This document shows, one piece after another, positions 4,560 through 33,862 of a DNA stretch of 41,073 nucleotides. Positions within the stretch are counted from its first letter, which is position 1; each line of letters starts with the position of its first letter. The DNA is taken from contig PGZL01000017.1 in assembly GCA_002840095.1 (NCBI GenBank), positions 1-41,073 of the forward strand, read 5' to 3'. Both the position numbers and the translations under genes were made by a program. The DNA comes from Gammaproteobacteria bacterium HGW-Gammaproteobacteria-1 (lineage in GTDB: Bacteria; Pseudomonadota; Gammaproteobacteria; Thiohalomonadales; Thiohalomonadaceae). The notes beneath the pieces were generated by a model that saw only the letters and a list, made by a program, of their open reading frames with translations, searched no databases and was not told the origin of the DNA.

Positions 4560-5315
4560 ATGGCGAGCGAATTGGTATTCGGCCTGCACGCCGTCGAGGC
4601 GGTATTGCAGCGCCCCGACGGCGTGGTCGATCTGTGGCTGGACTCGGGCCGGCGCGATCAGCGCCTGCAGGCCCTGGCCACTGCGGCCGAGGCGGCCGGG
4701 GTGCGGCCGCGCTGGGTCAAGCGCCAGGAGCTGGACAAGCTCACCGGCGGCGACCGCCACCAGGGCGCGGCGGCACAGGTACGCCAGGCCGAGGCCCGCA
4801 GCGAGGCCTTTCTGGAGCAGCTGCTCGTTGACCTGGACGTGCCGCCCTTCCTGCTGATCCTCGACGGCGTCACCGATCCGCACAATCTCGGCGCCTGCCT
4901 GCGCAGCGCCGATGCGGCCGGTGTCCACGCCGTGGTCGCCCCGCGCGACAAGGCCTGCGGCCTGACCCCGGTGGCGCGCAAGGTGGCCAGCGGCGCCGCC
5001 GAGACCGTGCCCTTCGTGCAGGTGACCAACCTGGCCCGCACCCTGCGCATGCTGCAGAACGCCGGGGTATTCCTGGTGGGCGCCGCCGGCGAAACCGAAA
5101 CCTCCCTGTTCCAGGCCGACCTGCGCGGCCCGCTGGGGCTGGTGATGGGCGCCGAGGGCAGCGGCCTGCGCCGCCTCACCCGCGAACACTGCGACCTCCT
5201 GGTGCGCATCCCCATGGTCGGCAGCGTGGAAAGCCTCAATGTTTCCGTGGCCACCGGCATCTGCCTGTTCGAGGCCCTGCGCCAGAGAGGCTGGGGACTA
5301 GGGACTAGGGGCTAG
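4560..5315 (+). CDS. rlmB: 23S rRNA 2'-O-methyltransferase (Gm2251)
   Basis: SPOUT-family methyltransferase that modifies G2251 in the peptidyl-transferase P-loop of 23S rRNA. The 251-residue protein has the N-terminal substrate-binding domain (about 1-85, starting [16 protein letters not shown]) and the C-terminal trefoil-knot domain with family motif 1 ([16 protein letters not shown]), motif 2 ([11 protein letters not shown]) and motif 3 ([18 protein letters not shown]). ATG at 4560 was preferred; an adjacent GTG at 4557 would add one residue. The last residues (GLGTRG) and the TAG stop come from the first units of a heptanucleotide repeat array that begins inside the gene, so the array has replaced or extended the native C-terminus. 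The catalytic knot is complete, so function is probably kept. Confidence 0.95.
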
Positions 5316-5426
5316 GGACTAGGGGCTAGGGACTAGGGACTAGGGACTAGGGACTAGGGACTAGGGACTAGGGACTAGGGACTAGGGACTAGGGACTAGG
5401 GACTAGGGACTAGGGACTAGGGACTA
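5294..5426. repeat. Heptanucleotide tandem array, (GGGACTA)x19
   Basis: Nineteen contiguous 7-base units GGGACTA; units 3 and 6 are the variant GGGGCTA. Every unit carries TAG, so with period 7 each reading frame meets a stop every 21 bases. The array starts within the 3' end of rlmB. It is followed at about 5470-5500 by degenerate complementary units (TAGACCC, TGGCCCC, TGGCCCC) that could fold back on it. It resembles the short tandem heptamer repeats described in cyanobacteria. Confidence 0.97.
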
Positions 5427-25939: not shown

Positions 25940-26800
25940 CTAATGCATCGCCGTAAACATCAGGCGACGGTAACGGTGTACCAGTTCCCCCTGTCCGCCC
26001 AGTAGATCAAATATCTGCAACATGCCCTTGCGGCCGGCATCGTCGCCGTAGGCGCGATCGCGCCGCAACAACTCCAGCAACTGTTCCAGCGCCCCTTCCA
26101 CATCACCGGCCAGCACCAACCGGGCGGCCAGCTGGTGGCGCGCCTTGCTGTCCCCGGGGGCGGCGGCCAGAGTCTGTTGCAGGGATTCGATTTCCGGTGC
26201 ATCGGCTGCGGCGGAGGCGAAGGTGAGACGGGCGCGCAACGCCTCGGCCTGGGACGACAGCGCCAGGTCGGCCGGCAGGGTGGCGAGCAACTGGGCGGCT
26301 TCATCGGTGCGGCCGGTCACGGCGTGCAGTTCGGCCAGCATCAGCTGGGCGCGGTGATCTTCCGGTATCTCGTTCATGACCTGGCGCAGCAGGGCTTCCG
26401 CCTGCGCGGCGTCGCCCGTGCCCCATGCCTCTTCCGCCGCGGCGAGAAAGCGATCCGCCGGCTGCTCCAGATGACTGTCGATGAAGCTGCGAATCTGGGA
26501 TTCCGGCAGGGCGCCGGTGAATTCATCCACCACCCGGCCGTCGCGAATCATTTTCACCGTCGGCACGCTGCGCACGCCGAACTGGGTGGCCAGCGCCTGC
26601 TGTTCGTCGATGTTCACCTTGGCGAGCAGGAATTTTCCCTGATACTCCGCGGCCAGTTTTTCCATCAGCGGCAGCAATACCTTGCACGGCTCGCACCACG
26701 TCGCCCAGAAATCCACCAGCACCGGCACCTGCGTGGAGCGTTCCACCACGTCGGCGAAGTTTTCGGCGGTGATGTCGATGATGTATGCGCTGTTGCTCAT
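25940..26800 (-). CDS. cnoX: Thioredoxin-TPR chaperedoxin, CnoX/YbbN family
   Basis: A 286-residue protein with an N-terminal thioredoxin domain (about 1-110) and a C-terminal TPR-like domain (about 120-286), the layout of CnoX (YbbN), which protects substrates from oxidation and passes them to chaperones. The redox motif is WCEPC (Cys36, Cys39), with Glu in place of the usual Gly of WCGPC. E. coli YbbN has Ser-x-x-Cys there, so this protein could be redox active. Start ATG 26800 has AGGTCC upstream on its strand. It is convergent with dsbC. Confidence 0.88.
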   Translation of the reverse strand: MSNSAYIIDITAENFADVVERSTQVPVLVDFWATWCEPCKVLLPLMEKLAAEYQGKFLLAKVNIDEQQALATQFGVRSVPTVKMIRDGRVVDEFTGALPESQIRSFIDSHLEQPADRFLAAAEEAWGTGDAAQAEALLRQVMNEIPEDHRAQLMLAELHAVTGRTDEAAQLLATLPADLALSSQAEALRARLTFASAAADAPEIESLQQTLAAAPGDSKARHQLAARLVLAGDVEGALEQLLELLRRDRAYGDDAGRKGMLQIFDLLGGQGELVHRYRRLMFTAMH

Positions 26801-27201: not shown

Positions 27202-30200
27202 TCAGCCGGTTTCAACGTCCACCGCCCGTCCCGCGGCGGTGAACAGCAGCAGTGAACGTACCCGCCGGCCCGGCCACAACCGCCGTACGCCGGCGGCGTA
27301 GTATGCCATCTGGCCCGCATAGTGCGCGGCAAGGGCGGGCAGGTCGCCGGCGGCCTGGCGGTGGGTTTTGTAGTCGACGATGATCACTTCGTCATCCTTC
27401 AGCACCAGGCGATCGATGAGGCCGTATACGGTGCAGCCGTTGTGCGGGTAGTGCAGCGGCACTTCATTCCAGGCCTGGCGATAGCAGGCCGCGTCGTACA
27501 GTTCGCGGAATTGCGGCGCGCCGTGCACGGCACGGGCCTCCTGCCACCAGGCATCCAGCTCGGGATCGTCGGGGCTGCGTTGCAGTTCGGCGCCGACGCG
27601 GCCGCGCACGTCGTCACTTCCGGCCGGGCCGGCCAGCAATTCCAGCATGCGATGAATGGCGATGCCGCGCACGCGGCCGTCCTCATCGGCCGCGTCGGTA
27701 CCGTGGCCGGAAACGCTGCGGCTGGGGGCGATCTCCCGTGCCAGCGGTCGTAGCGCGAGCGTCTGTTGCAGCGGCGCCGGGATCGGCGGTGTGGCCTGCG
27801 GGGTGGGCACGGGGGCGCCCTGCGTCCCTGACGGCGCGGCGACCGGGGTGCCGGACTCGATGGGTTCGGGCAGGACCTGTTGCAGGTCGCCGTACCAGCC
27901 CAACCTCTCACCCTTGCTCGGCCGGCAGCCGGAGATGTACAGCAGCTGCCGGGCGCGGGTCAGCGCCACATACAGCAGATTGGCCGCTTCGCGTCGCTCG
28001 GCGGCCTGCTCCTGCTCCAACTGGCCGCGGGTATAGGCATCCTGTTCCGCCTTTTTGCCCACCAGCAGCAGGTACTCGGGCGTATCCGCCTCCGCCGGCC
28101 AGCCGACCAGGGCATGCCACGGGCGGTCGCTGCCGCCGGGGGCGGCGGTGTCGGCGAGAAAGACGACCGGCGCTTCCAGTCCCTTGGCGGCGTGGATGGT
28201 CATCAGCCGCACCCGCTCCGCCGCGCCGCTGGCCGGTGCCTCGTCCGGCGCCTCGTCCTGCTCGCGCATCTCGCCGAGGCGGGCCAGGAAATGGGTGAGG
28301 CTGGGATAGCGGCCGTGATCGATCTCCAGCGCCAGTTCGATGAAGCGGGTTAGGTTGGCCCGCAGGCGCGGCCGCAGGTGTGCGGGAAAGGCGGCCTCGT
28401 AGCGCGCGATGACATTGCCTTCGCTGTAGACCCGATCGAGCAGGTCGTGGATCGGCAGCGCACCGGCGGCGGCGTGCCAGCGGTCCAGGCAGTCGGCGGC
28501 GCGGCGCAGCGGCGTGCCGGGGCCTGCGTCGGTTTGTTGCAGGCGCTCGAACCAGGCGCCGCGCGGGCCGTGCGCCAGGGTGATCAGGTCGGCGTCGCTG
28601 CACGCGAACAGCGGCGAGCGCAGCACCTGCGCCAGCGCCAGGTTGTTGTACGGCGCGATGAGCGTTTCCAGCAGGCGCACCATGTCGTCCACCTCCAGGC
28701 TACCGAGCAGTGTGCCGCGGTCGGCGCCGAGATAGGGGATGCCGGCTTCGCGCAGCGCCTGCTCGTAGGCGTGGACGTGAGTGCGGTTGCGCACCAGCAG
28801 CAGTACGTCGCCGTAGTGCATGGGGCGCGCCTGCTCCGCGCTGCCGACCAGGGTGCCGGCGGCAAGCAGGTTGCTGATGGTGACCGCGATCTGCCGTCCT
28901 TCGTGCAGATAGCGTTCGTCCTCGTGGGTGATGCGCGGTTCCTGCAAGGGATTGCGCAAGGCGGCACGCGGTGCCGGCACTTCTTCCGTCACAGCCTCCA
29001 CCAGCGGAAGCAGCTCCACCCGTCCCCACAGCTGACGGTGATGGGTGTCGTGCGGGGTGAACGCGTCGAGCGCGCCGCAGAGGGGACCGTCATCGGTGTA
29101 CAGACGGTTGACGCATTCCATGATCGCCGGCGCCGAGCGGTAGGACACGTGCAGCGGGTGCGCCGTCGCCGCCAGGCGATCGCGCAGCCATTGGTGGGCG
29201 ACGTGGAACAGGCGCGGCTCGGCGCGGCGGAAACGGTAGATGGACTGCTTGCTGTCGCCGACCAGGAACACGCTGCGTCGACGCTCGGGGTTGCCGCCCG
29301 CCATCTCTTCCAACAAAGGCAGCAGCAGGCGCCACTGCGTGGGGTTGGTGTCCTGGAACTCGTCCACCAGCAGGTGATCGATGCGCTGGTCCAGCTTGTA
29401 CTGCACCCAGTGGGCATTGTCGGCCGCCGTGAGCAGGCGGTAGGCACGCCACTCCAGGTCGGTGAAGTCGAGCAGGCGCTGCTCCTCCTTGATGCGCTGG
29501 TAGTGTTCCAGCAGGCGCTGGCCGGCGCGATACCAGGCGGCGTTCAGCGTCAGCGTCTGCTGCGCCGCAAGCACGTCGCGCACGCGCAGCAGTTGCGCGC
29601 ACATCAGGCCGTGCAGTTCGAGAAAGCGCGCCTCGCCGGCAGGCCCCATCTTCTGCGCCTGGGTCTTGCTCTCCTTGCGGCTGCGCGGTTCGCCGTCCTG
29701 TTTGAGAAACACGCCGGCAAGAACGGCATGGCGCCGTGCCGGCGCAACGCCGTCGGCGAGGATGATCTCGAACTGCGCGGCGTGTTCGGCGTTGGTCTTG
29801 GTGGCGTGTTGCAGCAGCAGGTCGCGAAACTCGGCGAGCTGGGCCAGGGTGGGCGGCGTGAAAAGTCCGGCCAGCGGATCGGCGTCCGGGTCCACCTGCA
29901 GACGTTGCCGCAGCTGCGCGGCGGCATGGCCGCAGCCATCGGCCTGATCGCCGGTGAGGGCCCACCAGTCGCTGCGGTGATCGAGAAAGCTGTCCAGGGC
30001 GGCGGTGACGTTGCCCTGGCCGCCGCACAGTTCGAGCAGCAGCCCCAGGTCACGCGCCAGTACGCTCTGCGCCTCGGCCGTGGCCTCGCTCACCAGCGCC
30101 TCCCAGGCGGCGGCGCGCAGTTCGCCGCTCTTTTCCGTCAACTCGAAGCCGGGCGGAACATCCGCCTCCAGCGGGAAGCGGCGCAATATCTCCTGGCAGA

Positions 30201-30546
30201 AGGCGTGAAAGGTGGTGGTGCGCAGCGGGCGCGGCGCATGCAGCAGTTCCTCGTACAGGCCGCGGGCGCGGGCCCGCGCCTCCGGCGTGGCGGCGATGTC
30301 CATCTGGCCCAGTTCCGCTGCCAGCGCCGTATCGTCGAGGGCCGCGAGACGCAGCAGGCGCTCCGCCAGGCGCGTCTGCATTTCCGCCGCGGCCTTGCGG
30401 GTGAAGGTGATGGCGAGTATCCCGTCGGGCGGTGCGCCTTCGAACAACAGGCGCGTGAGCCGGGTGACCAGCAGCCAGGTCTTGCCGGTACCGGCGGAGG
30501 CCATCACGGTGGCGTTGACGGCGGGATCGCTGGGGTGGTGTGTCAT
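27202..30546 (-). CDS. addA: AddA-type helicase-nuclease (UvrD family)
   Basis: ATP-dependent helicase and nuclease subunit of an AddAB-type double-strand-break repair complex. The 1114-residue protein has Walker A ASAGTGKT at 16-23, TFTRKAAAEMQTRL, TTTFHAFCQEILR, Walker B VDEFQDTNPTQW, RFRRAEPRLF, TIHAAKGLEAPVVFL and VALTRARQLLYISGC as in UvrD-like SF1 helicases. A C-terminal PD-(D/E)XK nuclease has IAIHRMLELL near 960 and VDYKTHR near 1056. Start ATG 30546 was chosen (MTHHPSDPAVNATVMASAGT) over an in-frame start at 30579. It lies 424 bases downstream of addB, with a small RNA gene on the other strand between them. No recBCD is visible. Confidence 0.85.
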   Translation of the reverse strand: MTHHPSDPAVNATVMASAGTGKTWLLVTRLTRLLFEGAPPDGILAITFTRKAAAEMQTRLAERLLRLAALDDTALAAELGQMDIAATPEARARARGLYEELLHAPRPLRTTTFHAFCQEILRRFPLEADVPPGFELTEKSGELRAAAWEALVSEATAEAQSVLARDLGLLLELCGGQGNVTAALDSFLDHRSDWWALTGDQADGCGHAAAQLRQRLQVDPDADPLAGLFTPPTLAQLAEFRDLLLQHATKTNAEHAAQFEIILADGVAPARRHAVLAGVFLKQDGEPRSRKESKTQAQKMGPAGEARFLELHGLMCAQLLRVRDVLAAQQTLTLNAAWYRAGQRLLEHYQRIKEEQRLLDFTDLEWRAYRLLTAADNAHWVQYKLDQRIDHLLVDEFQDTNPTQWRLLLPLLEEMAGGNPERRRSVFLVGDSKQSIYRFRRAEPRLFHVAHQWLRDRLAATAHPLHVSYRSAPAIMECVNRLYTDDGPLCGALDAFTPHDTHHRQLWGRVELLPLVEAVTEEVPAPRAALRNPLQEPRITHEDERYLHEGRQIAVTISNLLAAGTLVGSAEQARPMHYGDVLLLVRNRTHVHAYEQALREAGIPYLGADRGTLLGSLEVDDMVRLLETLIAPYNNLALAQVLRSPLFACSDADLITLAHGPRGAWFERLQQTDAGPGTPLRRAADCLDRWHAAAGALPIHDLLDRVYSEGNVIARYEAAFPAHLRPRLRANLTRFIELALEIDHGRYPSLTHFLARLGEMREQDEAPDEAPASGAAERVRLMTIHAAKGLEAPVVFLADTAAPGGSDRPWHALVGWPAEADTPEYLLLVGKKAEQDAYTRGQLEQEQAAERREAANLLYVALTRARQLLYISGCRPSKGERLGWYGDLQQVLPEPIESGTPVAAPSGTQGAPVPTPQATPPIPAPLQQTLALRPLAREIAPSRSVSGHGTDAADEDGRVRGIAIHRMLELLAGPAGSDDVRGRVGAELQRSPDDPELDAWWQEARAVHGAPQFRELYDAACYRQAWNEVPLHYPHNGCTVYGLIDRLVLKDDEVIIVDYKTHRQAAGDLPALAAHYAGQMAYYAAGVRRLWPGRRVRSLLLFTAAGRAVDVETG

Positions 30547-30680
30547 GCAGTCAGTTGGTGCCGGTTGGAGTGCCTGCAAAGCATATCACTGTCGGCTGCC
30601 GACGTACGGTGACCGAAAACTTGTAGGAATAATCTGAAAGCCCTGTCAGCCGAGGTGCGGGGGTGACGTGGTCATCATGT

Positions 30681-30730: not shown

Positions 30731-30788
30731 TGTGCATGCAGATGTTTTTCATTGCAGGCAAAGTGAAAATCTGTGAGACACATCGCGC

Positions 30789-30816
30789 TTGCAGGGGTGG
30801 GGGGCTCTGCTAACAT
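30789..30816 (+). promoter_or_regulatory. Putative promoter of the Csr/Rsm-type small RNA
   Basis: Extended -10 TGCTAACAT (30808-30816) with TTGCAG (30789-30794, 4/6 match to TTGACA) 16 bases before it. Just upstream, TGTGAG (30772) and CTTGCA (30788) resemble the two halves of a GacA/UvrY activator box (TGTAAG-N6-CTTACA), but the gap here is 10 bases, so the match is weak. Confidence 0.45.
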
Positions 30817-30822
30817 TGCACC

Positions 30823-30942
30823 CGTGCTTGGTACAGGGAACGATTTACAGGGACCACAGGAGACCCTTCGCAGGGAAGTGAAGGTGGCAGGGAGCCAGAA
30901 GCAGGGACACCAGGGCGGCCGCAAGGCCGCCCTTATTTTTTT
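30823..30942 (+). ncRNA. Probable CsrA/RsmA-sequestering small RNA (CsrB/RsmY-like)
   Basis: About 120 bases with no plausible reading frame. Six GGA motifs occur within 75 bases, each preceded by CA: CAGGGA at 30834, 30848, 30871, 30888 and 30902, plus CAGGAG at 30857. The transcript ends in a perfect intrinsic terminator. Dense ANGGA motifs, a length near 120, an independent promoter and a strong terminator are the marks of RsmY/RsmZ/CsrB-type RNAs, which bind several CsrA dimers and relieve translational repression. It lies between addB and addA, opposite to both. It is called from motif count and layout only; covariance with known families was not tested. Confidence 0.6.
30912..30942 (+). 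terminator. Intrinsic terminator of the small RNA
   Basis: A perfect 9-bp stem AGGGCGGCC/GGCCGCCCT closed by the GNRA tetraloop GCAA, then TATTTTTTTG. The T-run is on the plus strand only, so it serves a plus-strand transcript although both flanking protein genes are on the minus strand. Confidence 0.9.
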
Positions 30943-30970: not shown

Positions 30971-33862
30971 TCATTGCGGCGACGCAACGATTTCCTCGCA
31001 CATATCCCGCCGGCACACGCCGGCCATGTCGCACCAGCGGCAGGTACGGCTGTCGCCCCAGGCGGGCAGGGGGCGACCGGCGGCGAGCTCTTCATACAGG
31101 GTGCGCAGGCGTGCGGCATTGGCGTCGCGCAGGGCGGCCAGCTCTGCGCCGGCCAGCGTGGCGCGGGCGGCGACGCCTTTTTGCGGATCGAGCGCCACGT
31201 ATTCCACCTGGGCGACGGCTTCCTCGGTGAGCATGGCGTAAAAGGGCAGCTGCACCGCCTCGCCCTGGGCCACGGCGTCCGCGTCGGGCACGCCGCCGGT
31301 CTTGTAGTCCACGATGCCGTGTCCTTCCGGGGAGCGGTCCAGCCGATCGATGCGTCCCTTCAGCGTCAGGCCCGGCAGCCACTCTTCGCGCCGCAGGGCC
31401 AGCTCCGCCCGCTCCACGCGCCAGCCGTCCTGCTCGCGCCCCAACTCCCAGTCGATGTATTTCGGGATCAGCCCTTGCCAGCGCAGCAGCCAGCCGCGGT
31501 GCAGCAGGTTGCCGGCCACGTCGTCGGCGAATACCCGTTCGGCGATGGTGTGCAGCAGCGCCTCCGCCTCGTCGCGGTTCGCCGCAGTGAGCACCCGGCC
31601 GAAGGGGCCCGGCAGGCCCGGCGCGCCGTGGTGAAAGGCCTGCAGCGTTGTGTGCACCCGTTCGCCGTAGTCGGCCTTTTCCAGTGCTTCGCGTATCGCC
31701 TCGGGCGGGGCGAGGCCCAGGCCGCGGGCGGCGAAGAACTGGTAGGGGCAGTCGATGAGCTGCTGGTAGCCGCTGGCGGACAGGGTTTTGGGCAGCAGGG
31801 CGGTGGGCAGCGCGGGGGCGGCCGGCACCGCGGGCGGTGGCAGTTCGGTGGTGTCGCAGCGGAACACCTGGCTGGCGGGATCGCACAGCCAGGCGGCGAG
31901 GGTGGCGTCGGCCAGATCGTCGTTCCAGCCCAGGCGGTGGAAGGCGCGCAGGGCCTCGACCCAGGGGCTGGGGAGGATGTCCTCGCCGTCCTGCTGGTGG
32001 CGCAGGGTTAGCGTCACCCGTGGTGCGGCCTCCAGCAGGCGGCGGAACTGCGCCAGGCGATCGGCGCGGCGTTCCTCCGCCGTGGGCAGGCCCAGTTCGC
32101 GCCGCACCGCCTCATTGAAGAAGGGCGACGGGCTGGCCGCGCCGGGCAGGTACTCCCGCTCCGCTCCGGCGATGATGACGGCGTCGAAGCGGCCGAGGCG
32201 GCTTTGCTCCAGCCCCATCAGCTGCACCCGGCCGCCGCTTACCGGCGGGCGGAAGTTGTAGCGCTCCAGGGTGCGGCCCAGCCAGGCGCGAAATTCGGTC
32301 CAGGCCAGGGGCGGGGTATCGTCGGGCACCGCCGCCGCCATGGACTCCAGCTCTTGCAGCAGGCGCGCACCGGCGGCGTCCTCGGCGAAGCTGGCGCTCA
32401 GTCCCAGCCGCTGCAGGGTTTCGTGCAGGGCGCTCAGCAGGCGGTCGGGACGCTGCGGCCGGGCGGCGAGCAGGCGCAGCGGGGTGGCCGCGTGATCCAG
32501 GCGGTCGAGCAGGGCGGCGATGCGTTCGAATTCCGGCGCCATTCCGTCCGGCAGCAGGCGCCGCCGTTCGCGCAGCTGGCGCCGGTAGCGGTCCAGGCCG
32601 CGGCCGATGTTGCCCTGCAACACCACGCCCTGTTCCAGGCGGTAGACGTCGTTGAGGCGTGCCGTCCGTTCCTCCCCGGCGAAGACAAAGGGCGATTTGA
32701 GCAGGTCGAGCATGGCCTGGTAGGGGAAGTCCTCCTCCACGCATTCCAGCCAGCGCTCCAGGGCGGCGGCGGCGCTGGTGGTGGACAGGGCCCAGCCCGC
32801 GGCGTCCAGCACCGGGACGCCGGCCCGCTCCAGCAGCGCCCGTACGCGGCGGGCGAGGCGGCGGTTCTCGGTGACGACGGCGACACTGGCGCAGCCGTCG
32901 AGCAGGGCGCGCCGCACTTGCAGGTCCACCGCCATGGCCTCCTGTTCGGCACCGTCGGCGGCATGGATATAAAGGCGCCCGGCGGCGGGGGATGCCGGGT
33001 GGGCGGCGGCGAAGGCACGGGCGCGCTGCGCCAGCGGCACCGGCTGCGGGAACAGGGCCTGGTCGAGCAGTTGGGCGTAGGGCGTGGCGTTTGTGGGTCG
33101 GGCTTCAGCCCGACTGATCTCATCGCCGTCGGTCTGAAGTCCGACCCACAGCGGGGCGTCGTCCTGGATGAACAGCCGTGCCATGCCGCGTTCCAGCAGG
33201 GCGTGCAGCCATTGGATTTCGGCGCGGTCAAGACGGCTGAAGCCGGCCAGGTACAGCGGTTCCCGCACCTGTTCGATGCTTGCCGCAAGGCGCAGCAGGG
33301 CCGCGCTGGGGGCGTCGATGACGCCGCGTGCCTCCATCTGCGCGTGCCAGGCCTGCCACAGGGTATGGATGACCCTGGCCTCCAGGGTGAGCGCCGCCAG
33401 GGCGCGGCTGTCGGCGCCATAGCCGGCGGCGAGGCGGCGGCGGAACTCCTCCAGGGTGGACGGCAGGCCGATGCGGTTCAGGGTCAGTTCGTCGAACAGG
33501 GTGAGCAGGCTGTCGGCCAGGGACCACAGGTTGCCGTGACCGAACAGGCTGCGATGCTCCCGCAGGGCTTCCACCAGCATCAGTTCGCGGCTGTGGTCGC
33601 TGATCACCCGGCGCTGCAGCGGCCATTCGCCGAGCCAGTCGGACAGGGCGAGGATGCGTGGGCCGAGCAGTGCCTGATGGCCGGCGGCGGCCACGCCCTC
33701 CAGCAGCAGCCGGCGCAGGCGCGGCGCGGCCTCCCGCTCCGGCAGCAGCACCACCACGTCGTCAAGCAGGGGCAGGCGCGCGGCGTGATCGGCCAGCAGG
33801 CGTTCGGCCAGCACGGCCAGGGCGTCGGCGGCGGGGGGAATAGGGGTAATGGCGTCGTTCAT
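30971..33862 (-). CDS. addB: AddB-type PD-(D/E)XK nuclease subunit
   Basis: Partner of AddA in an AddAB-type break-repair nuclease. The 963-residue protein has an inactive-helicase-like N-terminal part (VVVLLPEREAAPRLRRLLLE, then LYLAGFSRLDRAEIQWL) and a C-terminal nuclease with VDYKTGG near 850-860. Cys residues for the 4Fe-4S staple are visible: one in LIDCPYQFFAARG (about 704) and a cluster CRWCDMAGVC near 938-947 with another Cys at about 952. A REP-like palindrome lies inside the gene (33092-33150), adding about 20 residues (238-257) in frame. The gene precedes addA, separated by 424 bases holding a small RNA. Confidence 0.83.
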   Translation of the reverse strand: MNDAITPIPPAADALAVLAERLLADHAARLPLLDDVVVLLPEREAAPRLRRLLLEGVAAAGHQALLGPRILALSDWLGEWPLQRRVISDHSRELMLVEALREHRSLFGHGNLWSLADSLLTLFDELTLNRIGLPSTLEEFRRRLAAGYGADSRALAALTLEARVIHTLWQAWHAQMEARGVIDAPSAALLRLAASIEQVREPLYLAGFSRLDRAEIQWLHALLERGMARLFIQDDAPLWVGLQTDGDEISRAEARPTNATPYAQLLDQALFPQPVPLAQRARAFAAAHPASPAAGRLYIHAADGAEQEAMAVDLQVRRALLDGCASVAVVTENRRLARRVRALLERAGVPVLDAAGWALSTTSAAAALERWLECVEEDFPYQAMLDLLKSPFVFAGEERTARLNDVYRLEQGVVLQGNIGRGLDRYRRQLRERRRLLPDGMAPEFERIAALLDRLDHAATPLRLLAARPQRPDRLLSALHETLQRLGLSASFAEDAAGARLLQELESMAAAVPDDTPPLAWTEFRAWLGRTLERYNFRPPVSGGRVQLMGLEQSRLGRFDAVIIAGAEREYLPGAASPSPFFNEAVRRELGLPTAEERRADRLAQFRRLLEAAPRVTLTLRHQQDGEDILPSPWVEALRAFHRLGWNDDLADATLAAWLCDPASQVFRCDTTELPPPAVPAAPALPTALLPKTLSASGYQQLIDCPYQFFAARGLGLAPPEAIREALEKADYGERVHTTLQAFHHGAPGLPGPFGRVLTAANRDEAEALLHTIAERVFADDVAGNLLHRGWLLRWQGLIPKYIDWELGREQDGWRVERAELALRREEWLPGLTLKGRIDRLDRSPEGHGIVDYKTGGVPDADAVAQGEAVQLPFYAMLTEEAVAQVEYVALDPQKGVAARATLAGAELAALRDANAARLRTLYEELAAGRPLPAWGDSRTCRWCDMAGVCRRDMCEEIVASPQ
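33092..33150. repeat. REP-like palindrome inside the addB coding region
   Basis: Arms 33092-33114 (TGTGGGTCGGGCTTCAGCCC) and 33128-33150 (GTCGGTCTGAAGTCCGACCC) match as inverted repeats at 21 of 23 positions. The same core (GTGGGxCGGGCTTxAGCCCGAC) recurs at 38143-38170 outside any gene. The addB frame runs through it without a stop. Confidence 0.85.

Follow-up and report, generated by a model that had tools for sequence, protein, structure and literature searches.

A predicted BarA/UvrY-activated, CsrA-sequestering small RNA encoded at a broadly conserved locus between addB and addA

In the 41,073-nt stretch of DNA analysed here (the window), an addB-like and an addA-like gene enclose a spacer of 391 bp, which on its plus strand carries a dense run of GGA motifs followed by a terminator; as an earlier note on this DNA had stated, both flanking genes lie on the minus strand. 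This raises the question of what the plus strand of the spacer specifies. The earlier note had read it as a small RNA of the CsrB/RsmY type, and this reading is supported by a conserved array with a conserved strand, by genes for CsrA, UvrY and a BarA-like kinase, and by a UvrY-type box upstream; neutral or contrary to it are Rfam scores far below the cut-offs, covariation at the level of shuffles and a negative sigma-70 scan. On balance we consider it very probable that the locus, which is broadly conserved, encodes a BarA/UvrY-activated small RNA that sequesters CsrA, where transcription, the binding of UvrY and CsrA, and titration are inferred from sequence. The features are collected in Table 1.

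Table 1. Annotated and predicted features of the addB-addA region (positions in the window).
Feature	Position	Strand	Basis or remark
Predicted CsrB/RsmY-type small RNA	30822..30942	+	~120 nt; array, conservation
Predicted UvrY/GacA-type site TGTAGG-AATAAT-CTGAAA-GCCC-TGTCAG	30622..30649	+	Centred ~-190; layout, conservation, shuffles
Candidate weak -35, TTGCAG	30789-30794	+	Sequence
Extended -10, TGC-TAACAT	30808..30816	+	Sequence; kept in G001, G002, G004
Six CA(G)GGA motifs, CsrA-type	30834..30907	+	GGA at 30837, 30851, 30859 (the CAGGAG), 30874, 30891, 30905
Predicted hairpin CCUUCGC-AGGGAA-GUGAAGG, AGGGA in loop	30865..30884	+	Folding prediction
Predicted hairpin UGGC-AGGGA-GCCA, AGGGA in loop	30885..30897	+	Folding prediction
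Intrinsic terminator, 9-pair stem, GCAA loop, T tract	30912..30942	+	Sole site found; stem-loop 30912-30933
addB-like gene, PD-(D/E)XK nuclease, first in addB-addA order	30971..33862	-	Best NCBIfam model AddB, below cut-off
addA-like gene, UvrD helicase and PD-(D/E)XK nuclease	27202..30579	-	Best NCBIfam model AddA, below cut-off

A recount of the six CA-preceded GGA motifs reported within 75 bases returned the same number, five exact CAGGGA and one CAGGAG. Considering both strands of the entire window, this array is the densest cluster of A(N)GGA, with 6 per 75 nt and at most 4 elsewhere, a microsatellite at 5300-5423 excepted. The latter is a head-to-tail array of the heptamer AGGGACT on the plus strand, placed between two minus-strand reading frames; G000:C29:134168-134214 holds a similar array. 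In the 4.23 Mb genome, a pattern of three AGGGA gave 22 matches (15 within heptamer microsatellites, 3 overlapping at the RNA and 4 single ones elsewhere), a raw count that comes without a valid chance rate, as the reversed control, also 22, is void because AGGGA reads identically backwards. Elsewhere in the genome, a REP-like element (L254, G000:C66, ~158020-158062, minus strand) displays AGGGA in two hairpin loops, one on a perfect GACTAC...GTAGTC stem and one on a GAAAC...GTTTC stem, and might be a repeat offering CsrA sites. Dinucleotide shuffles of the window RNA reached six motifs in 9 of 500 cases; the motif count taken alone is modestly unusual, and the case therefore rests on comparison and conservation.

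The GGA motifs fall in hairpin loops in part only. In the minimum-energy fold three of the six GGA are unpaired, and the mean unpaired probability is 0.74 for GGA as compared to 0.48 for the whole RNA (a comparison without shuffle control), but just two of the six sit in hairpin loops. Six GGA in about 120 nt agree with the several motifs, many of them in loops or single strands, of CsrA-sequestering small RNAs.

The beginning of the RNA was placed from the extended -10, with an uncertainty of a few bases, and its end from the T tract of the terminator. The extended -10, TGCTAACAT on the plus strand of the spacer, had been recognized previously and its sequence is confirmed; the form TGCTANNAT is kept in three of the four genus relatives (G001, G002 and G004) and absent in G003. 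A consensus sigma-70 scan found no promoter at the RNA, and hence the promoter call rests on the extended -10 together with its conservation. The GNRA-capped terminator described before is the one site that the terminator scan returned, against a mean of 0.4 in shuffles, and its stem pairs are identical in all five genus members. At the sequence level, the RNA accordingly has the outline of its own transcription unit, with a terminator, a predicted promoter and no conserved reading frame.

The upstream region required a reassignment. A weak GacA/UvrY-like box had been proposed with TGTGAG at 30772-30777 and CTTGCA at 30788-30793, separated by a gap of 10. This sequence is indeed there, but the identification is probably wrong, since CTTGCA shares bases with the likely -35, and TGTAGG-N6-CTGAAA-N4-TGTCAG, located 140 bp further upstream, is a better candidate. 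This predicted site has the layout and distance of the one that UvrY footprints at E. coli csrB, and it is conserved; the layout recurs in 12 of 13 family spacers, the exception being G003, where it was lost together with the promoter. An equal fit was reached by 1 of 60 shuffles in G002 and by 0 of 60 in each of the other 11 spacers, and, using a slightly looser pattern, by 0 of 100 in each of the 12. In the G003 spacer (L005/L033), about 190 nt including box and promoter are gone and the RNA body is intact, either a real loss or an assembly effect.

Next, the box was sought genome-wide. The family-wide pattern matched 42 times in 20 genomes (reversed control 16), and the exact long pattern in 274 class genomes matched at 8 places in 5 genomes (reversed control 0), two of these in the genus member G001. 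Among the six places outside the family, three adjoin clear GGA arrays and one a short array. Two are in G074, belonging to two tandem CsrB-like units of a single addB-addA spacer (L260), each with its own box and terminator, and one is in G108, upstream of a long GGA array. Two more are in G143, one with a short GGA-hairpin candidate and one doubtful, and the G096 place has no GGA array. The box is also found upstream of ordinary genes without such an array, for example at G000:C47:28984, and thus alone it is no proof of a Csr RNA.

Several of these places merit description in their own right. A perfect box TGTAGG-N6-CCTATA recurs in similar surroundings in three genus members (L244 at G000:C47:28984, L245 in G001 and L184 in G003), near a gene start and with no GGA array directly there. 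Away from addA, GGA-rich CsrB-like candidate RNAs with a box directly upstream are present at L247 (G017:C72) and L246 (G013:C234). The long CsrB-like candidate of G108 (L263) is divergent from a thioredoxin-TPR gene (1647-2510), which shares 51% identity along its length with the window gene at 25940-26800 that comes after addA, hinting at a common neighbourhood without addA. In G143 (L267), the box precedes a candidate of about 90 nt that has short hairpins with GGA and is close to a TTAGGAC-type repeat.

We then turned to conservation within the genus and family. By DNA similarity, the RNA is present in four other genus genomes, in G003 and G004 partially only. The family sample comprises 20 genomes, and an order-level search gave the identical 20; in all 13 that bear addA, the array is next to this gene and on the opposite strand, with addB recognized beside the array in 11 (not in G013 and G018), and the other 7, some of them incomplete, have no AddA of this type. 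Aligning the addB-addA spacers of relatives, a check proposed by the earlier note, indeed revealed that the GGA array and its strand are conserved. Identity of G000 to G002 and G001, respectively, is 84 and 84% in the box, 60 and 57% between box and promoter, 84 and 87% in the promoter, 86 and 84% in the RNA, and 75 and 50% in the sequence after it.

The predicted RNAs, with ends set by eye, measure 111-122 nt in the genus and 192-313 nt elsewhere in the family, and contain 6 to 20 GGA and 5 to 15 A(N)GGA each. Depending on the genome, between 0 and 9 of 500 shuffles attained the A(N)GGA count; for E. coli csrB (19 A(N)GGA) and csrC (13), analysed in the same manner, none of 500 did. In 13 of 13 RNAs, the unpaired probability is higher at GGA than across the whole RNA (0.57-0.85 versus 0.37-0.51, terminator stems included and without shuffle control). 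Covariation in the five genus members was equalled by 97 of 500 shuffles. In a tree of AddA, which included 4 loci from named contigs, the five short-form genomes make up one side of a branch (100/100), and the longer-form genomes are scattered over several groups whose branching order is not resolved in the tree. That one locus in one family spans forms from 111-122 nt with 6-7 GGA up to 313 nt with 20 GGA suggests that a single lineage can have RsmY-like RNAs at one end and CsrB-like RNAs at the other.

The survey was extended to the class. An AddA profile (E 1e-120 or better) matched 70 of 369 class genomes, 3 of them of the window's family; 61 of the remaining 67 were examined and, with the 13 of the family, constitute 74 loci. 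Six loci were left out (G052, G258, G287, G302, G341 and G353) as the AddA start was missing, the contig ended or the upstream stretch was not taken, and G330 is counted despite almost no upstream sequence. In 46 of the 74, addB lies within 1.5 kb of addA, and the spacers form two groups, 20 of 0-99 bp and 26 of 198-879 bp. On the strand opposite addA, a density of 5 or more A(N)GGA per 150 nt is reached in 23 of the long spacers, as compared to 0 of 26 on the other strand, which never exceeds 3; G245, G343 and G020 are long spacers with weak arrays only (3-4 A(N)GGA). The 20 short spacers have no array and never exceed 2 A(N)GGA per 150 nt. Six more arrays (G013, G018, G053, G090, G219 and G351) came from the 28 loci in which no addB was recognized; G013 has 5 A(N)GGA on the other strand as well. 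A cluster of 5 A(N)GGA in G313 was excluded, as it sits in coding-looking sequence.

In total, arrays are present at 29 of 74 loci from 12 families, the window's family contributing 13 and 11 other families 16; with a machine-found terminator required, 24 genomes and 10 families are retained. The earlier note had considered the RNA possibly lineage-specific, which is too narrow, since 12 families in the class-wide sample share this location. The box, allowing at most 3 mismatches, accompanies 21 of the 29 arrays, and in 20 of the 21 it precedes the densest cluster, measured to its first motif, by 131-236 bp (59 bp in G255); its fit was reached by 0 of 100 shuffles at each locus except G219 (3 of 100). 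No box at this threshold was found for the arrays of G003, G101, G109, G143, G230, G257, G335 and G352. Of 80 AddA loci on named contigs, 13 were inspected for a spacer, and on the RNA strand none of these exceeds 4 motifs per 120 nt; L078, L079 and L081, the relatives nearest to the family with upstream sequence, have no spacer as judged by eye.

Can the same observations be explained otherwise? An RNA on the strand opposite to addB and addA, present next to addA in 12 families, might be a cis-antisense regulator of the addB-addA mRNA, operating through intercistronic pairing or transcriptional interference, with the GGA being incidental. Pairing would however not favour A(N)GGA arrays that vary between genera (6 to 20 GGA), and candidate RNAs bearing GGA motifs and this kind of box exist away from addA (G017:C72, G013:C234 and G108), rendering this explanation improbable. 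A compositional richness in GGA, by chance next to an unrelated terminator, would agree with the finding that six motifs are reached in 9 of 500 shuffled versions of the window RNA, but not with the recurrence on one strand of orthologous spacers (23 of 26 versus 0 of 26), nor with box, promoter and body being conserved above the stretch between box and promoter, and we give it hardly any credence. Equally little speaks for a small-protein gene or leader peptide, for although a GTG-start frame is open through the window RNA into the following sequence, the longest frames of the five genus members disagree in reading phase, length and encoded peptide, with none kept. That the motifs serve AddAB at the level of DNA, for example as clustered Chi-like sites, is suggested by the position inside addB-addA but is extremely unlikely in view of the RNA-style features (terminator, promoter, UvrY-type box and variation among AGGA, AGGGA and ANGGA) and the similar arrays away from addA.

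We return to a CsrA-sequestering RNA and the proteins it would require. Such an RNA presupposes a CsrA or RsmA protein, as the earlier note had pointed out, and the genome has one CsrA match (89.5 bits), the sequence of which, read by eye, carries L4 and R44; these are named as critical RNA-binding residues of CsrA in passages of PMC7652899. The UvrY orthologue is 58% identical to that of E. coli and scores 311.3 bits with NF007018 (cut-off 280), and uvrC follows directly (TIGR00194, 533.1 bits versus a cut-off of 285.45), the same order as in E. coli. For the sensor, the best family of a BarA-like kinase is BarA at 556.6 bits, below the model cut-off of 890; the genome is consequently equipped with both partners of the two-component system, UvrY above its cut-off and the kinase below. 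In the CsrB paradigm, as outlined in passages of PMC7652899, phosphorylated UvrY turns on an RNA with several CsrA sites, which removes CsrA from mRNAs. With CsrA, UvrY followed by uvrC, and a BarA-like kinase all present, this paradigm is therefore the most likely mode of action here.

In detail, phosphorylated UvrY bound about 190 bp upstream (30622-30649) would activate a promoter at ~30789-30816, and transcription as far as the terminator (30912-30942) would yield an untranslated RNA of about 120 nt. The six GGA motifs would bind dimers of the single CsrA detected in the genome, and CsrA held by the RNA would be kept off weaker mRNA sites, such that BarA signalling lowers free CsrA. A more tentative, and in our judgement rather unlikely, extension is that the UvrY site acts both ways, on the CsrA sponge and, divergently, on addA, and that the spacer has long and widely housed Csr small RNAs across the class. 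The addA-like gene runs divergently from the RNA, and the box is within about 80 bp of its annotated start, where the true start codon may be further inside the annotated frame. If this two-way reading were true, BarA/UvrY would couple a late-growth switch to the repair of double-strand breaks.

As to classification, the earlier note had been unable to assign an annotated family, and the Rfam scans bear this out. Across 35 sources (the window plus 12, 10 and 12 loci, three of which are not addB-addA spacers), no CsrB-clan match attained its cut-off, and the five sub-threshold clan matches listed are all on predicted RNAs. RsmY (RF00195) gave 13.1 bits in the window (E 1.1; cut-off 57 bits). 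CsrB (RF00018, cut-off 71 bits) is not listed for the window and has no match in its genome at E 1, the best relative being G007 with 38.2 bits. PrrB_RsmZ (RF00166, cut-off 44 bits) has no match at cut-off in the window and does not appear among its listed sub-threshold matches, a listing that omits one overlapping clan match of lower score; it reaches 25.4 and 25.7 bits in G004 and G101. MicX and an HCV stem-loop, the best sub-threshold matches of the window, were set aside, being centred on the terminator hairpin. The CsrB model over the 20 family genomes returned 8 weak matches, with the E. coli control above cut-off. Three fall on predicted RNAs (G007, G017 and G018), and five (G005, G006, G010, G011 and G015) were rejected by eye as terminators or gene ends; in G015 there is a GGA cluster beyond the match. 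In G011 and G016, dense clusters of GGA close to other genes were likewise discarded, as by eye they resemble repetitive or coding sequence. Because none of the three Rfam families considered reached its cut-off, we regard the RNA as a new member of the functional kind CsrB/RsmY rather than of an existing Rfam family.

Sequences of Csr/Rsm small RNAs change so fast that homology models miss them. A genomic address combined with a UvrY-type box at a roughly fixed distance hence offers a practical route to the CsrA antagonist in lineages without model organisms, and the address raises the question of why such an RNA resides inside a DNA-repair operon. A literature search joining Csr terms with addA, addB or AddAB gave no connection among the matches listed, Kulkarni et al. 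2006 being outside its scope. That study reportedly predicted CsrA-regulating small RNAs, and some of the RNAs described here may have been predicted earlier.

How, finally, does the locus compare with known systems? The Pseudomonas RNAs RsmY and RsmZ are similar in size, the models RF00195 and RF00166 having 121 and 133 positions, and the sub-threshold RsmY match covers the whole model over 30822-30933, at 13.1 bits versus 57. With E. coli CsrB and CsrC the window RNA shares A(N)GGA arrays and a terminator, but compared to CsrB it is one third of the length, has 6 GGA versus 22 and sits in addB-addA. The similarity to csrB includes the upstream control region. According to passages of Zere et al. 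2015 (PMC4682653), the csrB repeat TGTGAGAGATCTCTTACA at -183/-182 is footprinted by phosphorylated UvrY, with TGTAGGAGA 5 bp downstream, and csrC has a weaker repeat with an extra half-site upstream of it. In the E. coli K-12 sequence, the csrB region reads TGTGAG-AGATCT-CTTACA-GACTC-TGTAGG. The window likewise presents a predicted inverted repeat of UvrY type (at ~190 bp versus ~-183) and then a third half-site, which is downstream of the repeat as opposed to upstream in csrC, and its half-sites are mostly TGTAGG, in contrast to csrB. The UvrY/GacA binding site is written TGTAAG-N6-CTTACA in passages of PMC4682653. The predicted window site differs from it in its halves, TGTAGG and CTGAAA, with TGTCAG as the third, yet follows the same plan of hexamer, six bases and hexamer, and in G141 and G255, from another family, the first half reads TGTAAG.
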